Shown one piece after another: positions 9,092-45,570 of a stretch of 64,000 nucleotides of DNA. The notes beneath the pieces are model-generated. The model worked only from the letters and a program-made list of their open reading frames with translations, did no database searches and was not told the origin of the DNA. The translations under genes and the position numbers were made by a program. Numbering within the stretch: position 1 is the first letter of the stretch; each line of letters opens with the position of its first letter. The stretch covers positions 1,364,001-1,428,000 of the forward strand of contig NZ_CP101323.1 in assembly GCF_024300825.1 (NCBI RefSeq), written 5' to 3'. The stretch comes from Natronomonas gomsonensis (GTDB taxonomy: Archaea; Halobacteriota; Halobacteria; Halobacteriales; Haloarculaceae).

Positions 9092-11005
9092 TTACTCGCC
9101 GCCGTCCCGAAGGAGCGTACTCCGGAGTTCCTCGTCGAGTTCGGCGTTCTCCATCTTCTCGATGAGGGCGTCGATGACGGGTTCACGCATGCCGGAGACG
9201 AACTTGATGGACCCGACGACGAGGTGTCCACCGCCGGAGACGCCCGCGCCCGGGATTTCGTCCTGCAGTTCGGTCACCATGTTCGGGATGTCGAGTCGGA
9301 CGCCGTCCGAGCGGAGGACGGCGAAGTCCGGCCCGTAGCCGATTGTGATGACGGGATCGCCGGTCTCGGTGACCTTCCGGTCGTGGAGTTCGCCGGTCGT
9401 CTTCCCGGGTGCGGGGTAGGTGAATCGGCGGGCGTGGTTCTCCACGTCGAGTCGGTAGAGGTGGGCGCCGTTGTCGAGTGCCTCGTGTTCGACGTGAGGT
9501 TCGGCGTCGTCGAGTTGTTCGTCGACGTCCCGCTGGGCACGCGTCGAGAGGAACTCGACGAGTTCCTCGTGGCGTTCGGGGTCGTCACAGTCGAGGTTGA
9601 GAACGTCGTTGATGAGGTTCTCCCCGGAGTTGTATCGGAGCCAGTGAGCCGCGTAATCCATCGCTTCGCCGATGGCCCGGAGGTCAGCCTCGGAGTAGCC
9701 GGCGTCGTCGGCCAACGCGAGGTAGTCGTCCATGGCGTCGGCTTTCGAGCGGTCCGACAGCCCCGCGACCGCCGGAACGTGTTCGAGTTGGTCGGTAATC
9801 GTGGGGTCAATCATCCGAGCCAACTCAACGCACATCATCCCGGTCGTGATGCGGTAGTCCTCGTCGTGGAGGTAGGGGTTGACGTGCTCTTCGAGGAGCG
9901 GACCGACCGCGTCGGGGTCGGGGTGGTGGTGGTCGACGACGAGAATCGGGATGTCGTACTGCGCCAGCGCGCGGTAGGCGGGCGTGTCCTCCTCGGTCGA
10001 GCCGTTGTCGACCATGAACAGTAGCGGAAGCCGCTGGCCGTGGCGCTCCTCGTCTTCCAGCGCGAAGTTGAGGTCCCGTGTCACGTCCTCCATCTCGTAG
10101 TACGGTGCTTTCGAGGGGAGCCGTTTGAACAGGTGCTGGGGTGCGTCGCCGTCCTCGTGAACCTCGGCGATGAAGTTCTCCAAGGCGAGTTGGACAGGGA
10201 CCGAGGCACACATCCCGTCGCCGTCGGCGTGGTGGCGGAGTCGGATGGGTCTGGAGTCGAGGACGGCCAACCGGAGTTGGCGGGCGACGGCCGCGAGGTC
10301 CTCACGGAGTTTCTCGAAGGCGGGCCACTCGATGAGGGGTTCGACGTCAGCGGGTTCGGCCCGTTCTTCGAGGGCCGCGTCGACGCGTGCACGAACTTCG
10401 TTTTCGGCCGCACCGCGGAGGCGAACGAGGTTGTCGGTCTCGATTTGGACTGACCCCTCGCGCGTCTCGACGTCGCCGGTGATACGAACCGTGTCGTCGA
10501 GTTCGATGTCTGGGTAGGCGCGGACGCCCGCTTCCTCGAAGGCAGCACAGGGGACGACGCCGGTGCCGTCCCGAACCGCGAATATCGTCGGGCCGGCGGT
10601 CTGTTTGATTTGCACCACGTCGCCTTCCAGGTGGATGGTGTCGCCGACGTGTTCATCGAGGTCCTCAACGCGGGCGTCGTCGCCGTGGACGACCGCCTCA
10701 ACGTCGACGGCGTCGATGTCGACATCGACTTCTTCGAAGCCGAGATCGCCGTTCTCTCGGATTTCGACGAGGTCGACAACGAGGTCGTCACCGGCGTCAT
10801 AGTCGCCGACGAGATTCGATTCGTGGACGAGTCCGGAGACATGGTCGGAGATGTCGACGAACACGCCGTACTTGACGACGCCGTTGACAGTTGCGAGATA
10901 CCGTGCGCCCTCTTCGATGTCCTCCTGAGTACAGTCGGCAGCTAAATCGTAGACGACCCCGTCGGCGGGGTCGGTGCCGGAATCGCCGGCAGCGGAACGA
11001 GTCAT
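9092..11005 (-). CDS. S1/OB/DHH phosphoesterase (archaeal RecJ-like nuclease)
   Basis: 637 residues. The N-terminus has an S1 RNA-binding domain (GARYLATVNGVVKYGVFVDI, then VSGLVHESNL). An OB-fold follows (GDTIHLEGDVVQIKQTAGPT...RDGTGVVPC), then a DHH core with HHADGDGMCASVPVQ, LLFMVDNGS and ILVVDHHHPDP. A C-terminal DHHA1-like part ends in GAGVSGGGHLVVGSIKF. Metal-binding Asp and His residues are intact, unlike the paralog at 2004. Haloarchaeal members are annotated RecJ-like exonucleases; the S1 domain suggests it may handle RNA or DNA. It is convergent with the PLD gene with no gap. Confidence 0.92.
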   Translation of the reverse strand: MTRSAAGDSGTDPADGVVYDLAADCTQEDIEEGARYLATVNGVVKYGVFVDISDHVSGLVHESNLVGDYDAGDDLVVDLVEIRENGDLGFEEVDVDIDAVDVEAVVHGDDARVEDLDEHVGDTIHLEGDVVQIKQTAGPTIFAVRDGTGVVPCAAFEEAGVRAYPDIELDDTVRITGDVETREGSVQIETDNLVRLRGAAENEVRARVDAALEERAEPADVEPLIEWPAFEKLREDLAAVARQLRLAVLDSRPIRLRHHADGDGMCASVPVQLALENFIAEVHEDGDAPQHLFKRLPSKAPYYEMEDVTRDLNFALEDEERHGQRLPLLFMVDNGSTEEDTPAYRALAQYDIPILVVDHHHPDPDAVGPLLEEHVNPYLHDEDYRITTGMMCVELARMIDPTITDQLEHVPAVAGLSDRSKADAMDDYLALADDAGYSEADLRAIGEAMDYAAHWLRYNSGENLINDVLNLDCDDPERHEELVEFLSTRAQRDVDEQLDDAEPHVEHEALDNGAHLYRLDVENHARRFTYPAPGKTTGELHDRKVTETGDPVITIGYGPDFAVLRSDGVRLDIPNMVTELQDEIPGAGVSGGGHLVVGSIKFVSGMREPVIDALIEKMENAELDEELRSTLLRDGGE

Positions 11006-18423: not shown

Positions 18424-19791
18424 TCAGATTGCCAGGGCGTCGACGACAACGGCGACGAGGACGAGTCCGAGATAGGCGTTTGAGGCGTGGAACGCCCGGA
18501 ACGCCGCCGATTCGGTTTGCTCGCGGTGCAGTCGGACGACCGTATACAGGAACAGCGCTCCGAGAGCGACCGTCGTCACACCGTAGAGCCACCCGAGGTC
18601 AGCCAACTCAGCAAGGACGCCCGCGCTCAGAAGCGTCGCCCCGAGATACAGGAGGATGTGCTTGCGGGTCTCGGTCTCCCCACGGACGACGGGCATCATC
18701 GGGAAGCCGCCACGCTCGTAGTCGTCCTTGTAGGCCAACGCGAGGTTGTAGAAGTGCGCCGGCGTCCACAGGAAGATGACGCCCGCGAGCGTGAGGCCGA
18801 CGGGGCCGACCGTTCCGGCGACGGCGGCGTAGCCGATAAGCGCCGGAAGCGCGCCGGCAGCGCCACCCAACACCGTGTTCTGGACGGTGTTCGGCTTCAA
18901 CAGCAGAGTGTACACGACCGAGTAGAACATGATGGCGGCGAGGCCGAGCGCCGCGACCAGCAGATTCACCGAGAGAAACGCCGCCAGCGAGCCAACCGCC
19001 AACAGGCCACCGAAGGCCAGTGCGTTCCGGACCGGAACCTCGTGGGTCGCGACCGGTCGGTCGGCGGTCCGCTCCATCCGCTTGTCGATGTCGCGTTCGA
19101 GGACGTGATTGAACGTTCCGGAGGCGCCGATGGCGAGGACGCCGCCGCCGAGCGTGGCGAGAACCGTCCGAACGGTCGGCGTGCCCGCAAGCGCCATCCC
19201 GGCGCCGGCGACGAGACACAGCAGCCACATCAGCCGCGGTTTCATCAATTCGAAGTACGCCCACGCGGTCGCTTTCAGGCGCTCGACACCGGTCAGCGTC
19301 GGCGCGACCGAGCCGTCGTCGATTGGCTCCTCGGCGAGAGACGGTTCGGGCACCGCACCCGGAGCGTCGTCGGTTCCGGTCTCGGCTTCCAGTTGCCACG
19401 CCAACGCGAGGACGAGCGCGGCGAAGATACTCATCGCGACGGCGAGGTGGAGGCCGGCGAAGGTACCACCGGTCGCAACGAACGCGCCGACGGCGACCTG
19501 TGCCGGATAGAGGAGCAGCGCCACACCGAGGGCGGCCTTCACGCGACGGCCAACACGGTTCCAGCCGAGGACGGCCGAGGTGAGAACGAGCAGTCCGACG
19601 ACGGCCGCGGCCGCACGGTGCAGCAGCGCGACGAGAACCGCCGGATTCGAGAGGTCGCCACCACAGAGCGGCCACCCAGAACACGCCGCGGCGGAATCGG
19701 AGAGTGCCGCCGTCGCGCCGACGACGACGAGGACGTACACACCGACGACCGCCGCCGCGAGCAGCGCGGTAATCGAAGGGCGGCGAATCAT
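18424..19791 (-). CDS. ctaB: Heme O synthase (protoheme IX farnesyltransferase) with CtaA-like N-terminal domain
   Basis: 455 residues. The C-terminal ~290 residues are a UbiA-type prenyltransferase: NHVLERDIDKRMERTADRP carries the first Asp-rich motif, and YKDDYERGGFPMMP the second. This enzyme farnesylates heme B to heme O for the oxidase. Residues 1-135 form about four helices (GATAALSDSAAACSGWPLCGG, LLHRAAAAVVGLLVL, GLHLAVAMSIFAALVLAL). They look like half of a CtaA/Cox15 heme A synthase, with conserved His in LHRAAA and LHLAVA and the CxxxxxC of CSGWPLC. The fused form suggests coupled heme O/A synthesis. It is divergent from coxB. Confidence 0.93.
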   Translation of the reverse strand: MIRRPSITALLAAAVVGVYVLVVVGATAALSDSAAACSGWPLCGGDLSNPAVLVALLHRAAAAVVGLLVLTSAVLGWNRVGRRVKAALGVALLLYPAQVAVGAFVATGGTFAGLHLAVAMSIFAALVLALAWQLEAETGTDDAPGAVPEPSLAEEPIDDGSVAPTLTGVERLKATAWAYFELMKPRLMWLLCLVAGAGMALAGTPTVRTVLATLGGGVLAIGASGTFNHVLERDIDKRMERTADRPVATHEVPVRNALAFGGLLAVGSLAAFLSVNLLVAALGLAAIMFYSVVYTLLLKPNTVQNTVLGGAAGALPALIGYAAVAGTVGPVGLTLAGVIFLWTPAHFYNLALAYKDDYERGGFPMMPVVRGETETRKHILLYLGATLLSAGVLAELADLGWLYGVTTVALGALFLYTVVRLHREQTESAAFRAFHASNAYLGLVLVAVVVDALAI

Positions 19792-19810
19792 ACGGGAATC
19801 TTGGTGTGGT

Positions 19811-19838
19811 CGTACTTAGGCCCCGCGCTTCCGGGGCC
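19811..19838. promoter_or_regulatory. ctaB-side promoter region with perfect inverted repeat
   Basis: On the minus strand, CCTAAG (19816-19821) lies about 25-30 bases before the ctaB ATG and could be its BoxA. It overlaps a perfect 7-base inverted repeat GGCCCCG-cgcttc-CGGGGCC (19819-19838) in the middle of the ctaB/coxB divergent region. The repeat is a candidate regulator site; it could also be chance in GC-rich DNA. Confidence 0.4.
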
Positions 19839-19858
19839 ACGTACAGGAAGTCAGCAAC

Positions 19859-19882
19859 TATTTAATCCGGTGTTCCTAACCG
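19859..19882 (+). promoter_or_regulatory. coxB promoter: BoxA plus shared 15-base motif
   Basis: TATTTAAT (19859-19866) is a strong haloarchaeal BoxA, 24-31 bases before the coxB ATG at 19890, implying a leaderless mRNA. Directly downstream, CGGTGTTCCTAACCG (19868-19882) is flanked by the half-sites CGGT and ACCG. The same 15 bases occur in the nuoA promoter (45547-45561, minus strand), again next to the BoxA. A protein bound here would cover the transcription start. Confidence 0.7.
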
Positions 19883-19889
19883 GCCGGTA

Positions 19890-20648
19890 ATGAGAGTCAC
19901 GCGCACCGTCACGGCGGCGCTCGCCGGGCTCGTGCTACTCGCCATCTCGGCTGACCCCGTGTTCGCACAGAGCCAAGGCGTAGAGCAGATAAACGGCCTC
20001 AACACGAAACTGCTCGCGGTGGCCATCCCCATCGCCATCCTCGTTGAGGTAATCCTCATCTACGCAGTTGTGAAGTTCAAGGGCAACGACGACCCCAAGC
20101 CGACCCACGAGAACCGCCGGCTGGAGATTACGTGGACGGTGGCGACCGCCATCGTGCTGCTGTTCGTCGGCTTCGCCTCCTACCAAGTGCTCGCCGTCGA
20201 GGAAGTCGGGAACCCCATCGACAGCGATGAACGCATCGAACCGCAGGTGTCCCAAGACCTCGAAGGCGCCGTCGGACCGCTGCAGTCCGAACAGAACGAG
20301 GCAGTCGAAATCGAAATCGAGGCGTTCCGCTACGGCTGGCGAGCGACCTACGAAGGGACCGACGTAACGACCAACAACGAGATACGCGTCCCAACAGACA
20401 GACCGGTGTACTTCCACATCACGTCGACCGACTGGCTCCACATGCTGTCGGTTCCGGACCTCGGTCTGAAGCAGACCGCCTTCCCCGGTGAGTACAACAC
20501 CATCAAGACGATTCCCACCGAGACCGGTGAACACCAGTTCTACTGTACGGAGTACTGCGGCATCGGTCACTCCCAGATGAACGGGAAGTTCGTCGTCATG
20601 GACGGCGACGACTACGACGAGTGGCTGGCGAACCAGCAGTCCGAGTAA
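19890..20648 (+). CDS. coxB: Cytochrome c oxidase-type subunit II
   Basis: Subunit carrying the CuA electron-entry site of a heme-copper oxidase, 252 residues. A signal peptide (VTAALAGLVLLAISADPVFAQ) and two membrane helices (LLAVAIPIAILVEVILIYAVV and TWTVATAIVLLFVGFASYQVL) precede the cupredoxin domain. CuA ligands are visible: His in TSTDWLHMLSVPDLGLK, and CTEYCGIGHSQM giving Cys, Glu, Cys, His and Met. Aromatic FRYGWRATYEG is the electron-entry patch. The donor in haloarchaea is probably halocyanin rather than cytochrome c. It starts the plus-strand cox cluster. Confidence 0.96.
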   Translation: MRVTRTVTAALAGLVLLAISADPVFAQSQGVEQINGLNTKLLAVAIPIAILVEVILIYAVVKFKGNDDPKPTHENRRLEITWTVATAIVLLFVGFASYQVLAVEEVGNPIDSDERIEPQVSQDLEGAVGPLQSEQNEAVEIEIEAFRYGWRATYEGTDVTTNNEIRVPTDRPVYFHITSTDWLHMLSVPDLGLKQTAFPGEYNTIKTIPTETGEHQFYCTEYCGIGHSQMNGKFVVMDGDDYDEWLANQQSE

Positions 20649-24489: not shown

Positions 24490-24512
24490 TTTCTTTACCA
24501 GTAGTCCTACCG
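24490..24512 (+). promoter_or_regulatory. coxA promoter region with degenerate copy of the cox/nuo motif
   Basis: TTCTTTACC (24491-24499) lies about 30-36 bases before the coxA ATG at 24528 and may be BoxA. CAGTAGTCCTACCG (24499-24512) directly follows. It matches the coxB/nuoA motif CGGTGTTCCTAACCG at 11 of 15 positions when one gap is allowed, in the same place relative to the TATA box. The match is weak alone. Confidence 0.4.
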
Positions 24513-39202: not shown

Positions 39203-39655
39203 CTACATCTCGACGACGTTACCACAATCCGGACACGTGAGCGTCACGCCCGACTCGTCGACCTCGGTGACGTGGTAGTCGGCGCCGCATTCGGCACACG
39301 GGAGCTTCGCGCGCGTCTCCCCCATCCCCTTGGGCGCACCGAGCGCCAGCGCGCGCACCCGGTCGTCGCTCTCGTTGCGACCCTCTTGATACTCGCCGGG
39401 GCCGAACCGGACGACCTCGTCGGGGCCGACCTCGTAGTCCTCGTCCGGCGTCTGGAACGTCGCCGTCCCGTCCATCACGTAGAACACCTCCTCTTGGTCC
39501 ATGTGGGTGTGCATCCCGCCGGAGAAGGACTCTCCCGGCGCCAACTCGTAGTAGTTCAGCGCCATATCCGAGAGCCCGAGGGGCTCGGTGGCGTGTTTCT
39601 GTACGTCCGCGACGCGTGGGTCGTTGTCCAGCTCGTCGATGGATACCTTCTCCAT
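39203..39655 (-). CDS. Cupin-domain protein with C-terminal zinc ribbon
   Basis: 150 residues from ATG 39655 (MEKVSIDELDNDPRVADV). Cupin motif 1 is GGMHTHMDQEEVFYVMDG, with the His-x-His and Glu ligands. Motif 2 (DEVVRFGPGEYQEGRN) lacks the usual His, so the metal site is incomplete. Residues ~120-150 form a zinc ribbon (CAECGADYHVTEVDESGVTLTCPDCGN). Function is unknown; a small-molecule sensor or modification role is possible. It is transcribed in the nuo direction but lies between the two halves of the nuo operon. Confidence 0.88.
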   Translation of the reverse strand: MEKVSIDELDNDPRVADVQKHATEPLGLSDMALNYYELAPGESFSGGMHTHMDQEEVFYVMDGTATFQTPDEDYEVGPDEVVRFGPGEYQEGRNESDDRVRALALGAPKGMGETRAKLPCAECGADYHVTEVDESGVTLTCPDCGNVVEM

Positions 39656-40058
39656 TGTGAACGGACGCTGTACATCTTGGATGGTAAGCCTTGACATTTC
39701 ACGCTGCATTTGCCGCGGTCGCCATCAGGGTACAGTATTACGGCGTTTTCTATGCCGGTCGAGTCCTGAAACTCGCGGCCACTGTAGACTAAGCAGTTAT
39801 CGGTGTGCATCAGTCTCAGCAGAAAGACGTGGCCGACCGTCTGCTCATGCAACAATCAACGACTCTCGTCAAGCGATGATGCGCGATGGGCATTACGTCA
39901 GTATTGAGTGAGTAATTACCCATTGTTGTGGGACGAGAGTAGACGCAGTAATGTTAACTAACAATTAGTAATGTGTTGTGACTTTCTGAACGTCGATTTA
40001 ACTATCTGCGCGTTATTTATCTTTCAATATTGTAACTAAAATCGGGGTGAGGGCTACA
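39656..40058. other. AT-rich stretch inside the nuo gap, no convincing gene
   Basis: About 400 bases with clearly higher A+T than the surroundings, especially from 39895. Short open frames exist but none has recognisable or well-composed protein. Features seen are two direct copies of AGTAATGT at 39948-39955 and 39967-39974 (19 bases apart, about two helical turns) around a GTTAAC palindrome. A good BoxA TTATTTAT lies at 40013-40020, and a GGTGA ribosome site at 40046-40050 serves the downstream gene. It may be the control region of that gene, or remnant foreign DNA. Confidence 0.6.
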
Positions 40059-44444: not shown

Positions 44445-45127
44445 GGTGAATTCGCCCAGTTGTACCGCATGACGAGATCCTCCTCATCGATTTCGTCTGC
44501 GAGGTGCTGTACCAACTCGTCGCGTTCGAGGTCGCCGAACTGTTCGAGTTCGTACGGTTTGACCGTCACCGGCGAGGTCTCACCGTTTGCGACTCGCTCC
44601 TGCAGTTTGGCGATGCCGTAGATGAGCGCCTCGGGACGCGGCGGACAGCCGGGGACGTGAATGTCGACCGGGATGACCTCCTCTGCACCCTTGATGACGT
44701 TGTACCCTTCCTGGAACGGACCGCCGGAGATGGTACACGACCCCATGCCGACGACGAACTTCGGTTCGGGCATCTGGTCGTAGACGCGCTTCATCCGCGG
44801 GGCGAACTTCGAGACGATAGTCCCCGGGACGATAATCACGTCGGCCTGTCGCGGGGAGGCCCGCGGCACACCCGCACCGAAGCGGTCGAGGTCGTGCTTG
44901 ATGGCGTAGGTGTGAATCATCTCGATGCTGCAGCACGCAATACCGAACTGCAGCATGAACATCGACGACCCCCGGACCCAGTTCATGAACTTGTCGAACT
45001 TGGTGAGGATGAACGGCGAGGAGCCGAAGGCCTCCCGAAGTTTCGAATTGAACCGGTTGTCGACGCCGTCGCCCATCCGGGCTTCCTGCGTCGAGACTGT
45101 GTCGTGGATTTCCTGTTCGCTACTCAT
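44441..45127 (-). CDS. nuoB: Complex I subunit NuoB
   Basis: 228 residues. The N2 4Fe-4S ligands are visible: adjacent Cys in [10 protein letters not shown], Cys in [10 protein letters not shown] and Cys in [10 protein letters not shown]. This cluster hands electrons to quinone. The N-terminal ~40 residues are acidic and variable. It overlaps nuoA and nuoCD by four bases. Confidence 0.97.
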
Positions 45128-45528
45128 AGTTCACTCTTGATTTCCGCACGTCCGCTCTTGACCCAGCGAACGGCACCGTTGCGCCACGCCCACCCGAGTC
45201 CGATAACGAGAATCGCGAGGAAGACGAGCATCGGGCCCAACACCGGAGTCAGTCCGAACTCGGCTACTGCGTCGCTGTAAATCAGTGCCCACGGGAAGAT
45301 GAGCACCGTCTCGATGTCGAAGACGACGAACAGCAGCGCGACCAGGTAGTACTGGATGTTGAACCGAATGCGCGTATCGCCCGTCGGAATCTCGCCGGAT
45401 TCGTAGGTGGCGCGTTTACCTTGTTCGGGCACGCTCGGCCGGAGGAGACTCGATATCCCGATCATCGAGAGGGGTATCGCGACTCCCACCAACGCCAGCG
45501 CCCCGACGGCGATCCATGGATTGCTCAT
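45124..45528 (-). CDS. nuoA: Complex I subunit NuoA
   Basis: 134 residues, three helices. Conserved YESGEIPTGDTRIRFNIQYYLVALLFVVFDIETVLIFPWAL holds the family motif with Glu and Asp residues near the quinone channel. It is the first gene of the nuo operon. The promoter upstream carries the same 15-base motif as coxB. Confidence 0.96.
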   Translation of the reverse strand: MSNPWIAVGALALVGVAIPLSMIGISSLLRPSVPEQGKRATYESGEIPTGDTRIRFNIQYYLVALLFVVFDIETVLIFPWALIYSDAVAEFGLTPVLGPMLVFLAILVIGLGWAWRNGAVRWVKSGRAEIKSEL

Positions 45529-45546: not shown

Positions 45547-45570
45547 CGGTTAGGAACACCGATACATAAG
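45547..45570 (-). promoter_or_regulatory. nuoA promoter: BoxA plus shared 15-base motif
   Basis: On the minus strand CTTATGTATC (45570-45561) is a TATA-like element about 35-40 bases before the nuoA ATG. CGGTGTTCCTAACCG (45561-45547) follows at once, overlapping its last base. The same 15 bases stand next to the BoxA of coxB (19868-19882). The motif has CGGT and ACCG half-sites separated by seven bases, as expected for a dimeric regulator. A short leader of about 10 bases is predicted. Confidence 0.7.

Follow-up and report, generated by a model that had tools for sequence, protein, structure and literature searches.

A rare, position-locked 15-base element shared by the coxB and nuoA promoters of a haloarchaeon

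Introduction

Operators of archaeal repressors can lie between the TATA box and the transcription start. The element described here, an exact 15-mer common to the coxB and nuoA promoters, resembles such operators in its TATA-to-start position and in its short inverted arms, spaced by roughly one turn of the helix. It differs from them in having only two sites, arms of 4 bp and no relocated or additional operators seen. A second point of reference is the haloarchaeal basal promoter, in which an A/T pair ('WW') at -10 is reported by literature cited in PMC4983044. The likeness consists of an AA at -10, an upstream TATA box and a leaderless or short-leader gene, whereas the added flanks of our motif (CGGTG, YC and CCG) are absent from other promoters of the same genome.

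Results

The same 15 bases follow the TATA box at coxB and nuoA

The window, which is the whole stretch of 64,000 nucleotides analyzed, contains two exact copies of CGGTGTTCCTAACCG, located by reading both strands, at 19868-19882 (+) and 45547-45561 (-). The two promoters comprise the following features.

19859-19865, + strand: coxB TATA box TATTTAA, read from the sequence; TATTTA is kept in many orthologs
19868-19882, + strand: coxB copy of the 15-mer CGGTGTTCCTAACCG, from sequence and genome search
19868-19871 and 19879-19882, + strand: CGGT and ACCG arms of the coxB copy, from sequence
19878-19879, + strand: AA of the -10 element in the coxB copy, from sequence
19890-20648, + strand: coxB, cytochrome c oxidase subunit II (Pfam COX2)
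45563-45570, - strand: nuoA TATA box CTTATGTA, read from the sequence; CTTATRTR is kept in most orthologs
45547-45561, - strand: nuoA copy of the 15-mer CGGTGTTCCTAACCG, from sequence and genome search
45124-45528, - strand: nuoA, which opens the nuo cluster and encodes Complex I chain 3 (Pfam Oxidored_q4)

Both copies have the same orientation relative to the TATA box and equal distances to it within a base or two, the first base falling 2-3 bases past the box, and both carry CGGT and ACCG arms seven bases apart. The initial annotation was accurate on each of these points, including coordinates and strands. It had also placed the motif over the transcription start, which the usual TATA-to-start spacing speaks against: with starts deduced from the customary distance of about 27 nt from the TATA box at both promoters, CGGTGTTCCTAACCG would span about -22 to -8, between the TATA box and the start. 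On the same reckoning, the coxB transcript is probably leaderless or nearly so, and a leader of about 12 nt is predicted for nuoA, starting near a CGATA block conserved in most congeners. In the same intergenic region, a TATA-like box, CTAAGT, is conserved about 27 nt before the start of the UbiA-type heme gene that runs divergently (18424-19791, -); the box (window 19805-19840) adjoins a GC-rich block kept in several genera.

The in-register match is rare, the bare repeat is not

The sharing had been judged unlikely by chance, a verdict that depends on what is counted. It does not hold for a bare 15-mer repeat, as the 64-kb window contains 164 distinct repeated 15-mers (versus 20-43 in Markov-1 sequence) and about 0.24 would be expected within its 5.9 kb of non-coding DNA alone. 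It does hold for a 15/15 match within two bases of the TATA register, which has a probability of about 5e-8 per promoter pair when base frequencies are taken column by column from 182 own promoters in 864 kb; about 0.016 such pairs are expected genome-wide for some 770 promoters. The best match among the 16,471 pairs of these sampled promoters was 13/15. At the level of the window, the expectation was 2e-6 with 9 promoters from a simple caller and would be near 1e-5 with about 25. Backgrounds were sampled stretches of the own genome (864 kb, window included), G033 (400 kb) and G018 (800 kb), and automatic TATA placement put some promoters wrongly, for example in G002. Chance repetition explains the shared 15-mer poorly.

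Coincidence could also have been kept by descent, if two promoters constrained at -10 drifted into an identical 15-mer in a single ancestor and passed it on to close species. We consider this unlikely. The abundance of 15-mer repeats in a GC-rich window speaks for it, as does the fact that scanning many windows will turn up rare pairs, but the expected 0.016 pairs were obtained before requiring any related function.

No further promoter copies in the genome

Genome-wide, 16 places lay within two mismatches of CGGTGTTCCTAACCG: the two exact promoter copies and 14 others that, judged from context, read as coding DNA. No further promoter copy within this limit was found in the own genome, including before functionally related genes; the search took in the sdh promoter, the sdh genes having been located. 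A pattern of TATA-like bases plus CGGTG-N5-AACCG matched exactly at the coxB and nuoA promoters only. When the combination was relaxed, the possible promoters among the 30 own matches inspected were few, all before unrelated genes. Enrichment before respiratory genes, which the initial annotation had anticipated, was therefore not seen.

Two other promoters contain parts of the motif. A search for TATA plus TCCNAACC returned one more convincing promoter, that of a tandem UspA gene, which carries TTATATCGCTACCGTCCTAACC (L133 near 1500-1522; own genome C1:2814540-2814561) and is organized as TATA-TCCTAACC, so that it has one half of the motif, TCCTAACC, where the -10 element lies. The promoter of a gene resembling glutamate dehydrogenase contains CTTAAACGGTGACTAACCG (own genome, L201 near 10347-10378), in which the arms recur with a gap shorter by two bases and at a smaller distance from the TATA box.

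A third site had been proposed at coxA.

24499-24512, + strand: CAGTAGTCCTACCG, past the coxA TATA box, matching 11/15 with one gap; rejected as a site

The letters are present, but as a site the match fails: random 34-mers reach this score in about 2% of cases, the position reads CAGTAGTCCTACTCC with ACCG gone in the 99% identical coxA of G001, one of the two nearest species, and a nuoA-derived profile (see below) gives it a background score. Many haloarchaeal coxA promoters have a GTCCT core of their own at about the -10 element (window 24490-24510), unlike nuoA and coxB. Because no other promoter copy was found, coxA failed and the relaxed matches lie at unrelated genes, a genome-wide respiratory regulon is not supported by these sequence comparisons.

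The full element appears in few species

In the two nearest species, G015 and G001, both promoters keep the motif, with one substitution at one site; the hits of a coxB scan that correspond to G015 and G001 were Natronomonas gomsonensis (95% identity) and Natronomonas sp. CBA1123 (97%). G018 is more distant, with just 72% identity in the coxB protein, yet the arms are kept there (10/10 bases at coxB, 9/10 at nuoA) over changed five-base centres (CATCC, CCTCT), and TATA plus CGGTG-N5-AACCG occurs within one mismatch at the coxB and nuoA promoters only. G002 largely shares this pattern of inverted-repeat arms over a changed centre, keeping 9/10 and 8/10 arm bases at the two promoters. Most other congeners have lost an arm at one or both promoters, the CGGTG left arm in particular, and none of those lacking the element showed a convincing relocated dyad upstream. 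Beyond G018 and G002, mostly a YCNAA core remains. In its full form, the element is confined to a few Natronomonas-related species; the nuo protein tree is poorly resolved and does not settle whether the five species that bear it group together. At the coxB locus, a perfect 10-bp palindrome, ACCGGCCGGT (window 19879-19888), lies before the start codon and overlaps the ACCG arm; G001 has it in broken form and G018 lacks it.

Conservation to G018 has to be read against ordinary promoters. Of 32 own/G018 promoter pairs, 11 agreed at 11 or more of the 15 bases that follow the TATA box, including nuoA, coxB and coxA, so conservation to G018 alone is no evidence of special selection. This ordinary level, together with near-full identity in just three very close species, is what an inherited coincidence would leave behind; the likeness of the coxB and nuoA promoters to each other also in G018 and G002 weighs against it.

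The right half coincides with the -10 element

Promoters of the own genome show an A/T peak at the -10 position, and the AA of CTAACC in the motif falls there in both copies. Where the alignment was usable, the YCNAA core was kept in 25/30 genomes at nuoA and 11/20 at coxB, versus about 7% of promoters in the background. Part of the right half of the motif is thus basal promoter, with the AA within YCNAA as the -10 WW; the CGGTG half is not accounted for by this element.

The whole motif might instead be a core-promoter variant, an extended -10 element (YCNAA plus preferred flanks) read by basal TFB and RNA polymerase, so that two respiratory operons with housekeeping roles would be similarly strong and need no regulator of their own. 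This is a serious, though somewhat doubtful, alternative. The AA coincides with the own-promoter A/T peak and with the -10 WW position reported for haloarchaea (PMC4983044), the YCNAA core is enriched at both genes, the element never shifts relative to the TATA box across the genomes compared, and an unrelated UspA promoter has TATA-TCCTAACC. However, a general preference is not apparent, with CCTAA in 1/182 and YCNAANC in 6/182 own promoters; GGTR-N2..5-YCNWA occurs in just 0.4% of the background, and a WW leaves CGGTG unexplained.

A nuoA profile ranks coxB first

Using a profile built from 27 nuoA promoters outside the trio of own genome, G015 and G001, we found that the own coxB promoter ranked first among the sampled promoters, a result that also counts against coincidence. 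In other species, 14/27 non-trio coxB promoters fell in the top 5% of background, versus 1/23 coxA promoters; these are not independent trials, the species being related, and several profile and pattern choices were tried. Without the two -10 AA columns the counts were 7/27 for coxB versus 2/23 for coxA, so the -10 AA carries a large part of the signal across species. This cross-promoter test is stronger evidence than conservation to G018. The converse profile, built from coxB, fixed on the TATA box and gave no information.

Discussion

The shared element is real, rare and position-locked at two linked operons. We tentatively read it as a lineage-restricted two-operon operator overlapping the -10 element, a putative site for a dimeric regulator that we prefer slightly over an extended -10 core variant. 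This reading draws on the in-register 15/15 match between linked operons, for which the genome-wide expectation is about 0.016 pairs, on the own genome having no other promoter within two mismatches, on arms kept while the centre changes in G018 and at 9/10 and 8/10 in G002, and on the nuoA profile, which ranks own coxB first and recovers 14/27 coxB versus 1/23 coxA promoters. Counted against it are the two sites only, arms of 4 bp and loss of the left arm in most congeners, with no relocated copy where the element is lost, as a free operator might show. The share of the signal carried by the -10 AA, the ordinary identity to G018 (11/32) and the non-independence of the species counts also count against an operator.

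As an operator, the 15-mer would be a promoter-proximal control element common to two operons only. Its CGGT and ACCG arms are 11 bp apart, about one helical turn, which makes a dimeric helix-turn-helix protein on both arms the likeliest mechanism. The bound protein may block or gate RNA polymerase loading, presumably as a repressor, and Complex I and the coxB operon would then be adjusted together. A Pfam scan of 30 window proteins revealed no clear DNA-binding regulator beside the cox or nuo genes; the nearest to one was a cupin protein (39203-39709) that matched a zinc ribbon weakly. A literature search, judged by titles, returned nothing relevant on a haloarchaeal nuo/cox regulator. The common regulator and the redox or oxygen link of the initial annotation are conjecture, with no support here for a redox signal. 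It is improbable, if conceivable, that a new haloarchaeal transcription factor reads CGGT-N7-ACCG over the -10 element and, in a Natronomonas lineage, coordinates the expression of cytochrome oxidase with that of Complex I, other haloarchaea having a degenerate version at the two promoters.

In appearance this is a small element of local control; it does not look like the signature of a regulator of respiration as a whole. With just two sites, it offers a small, cheap handle for testing whether the complexes at the two ends of an archaeal respiratory chain, entry and exit, are co-regulated, and whether the -10 region holds gene-specific information beyond WW.
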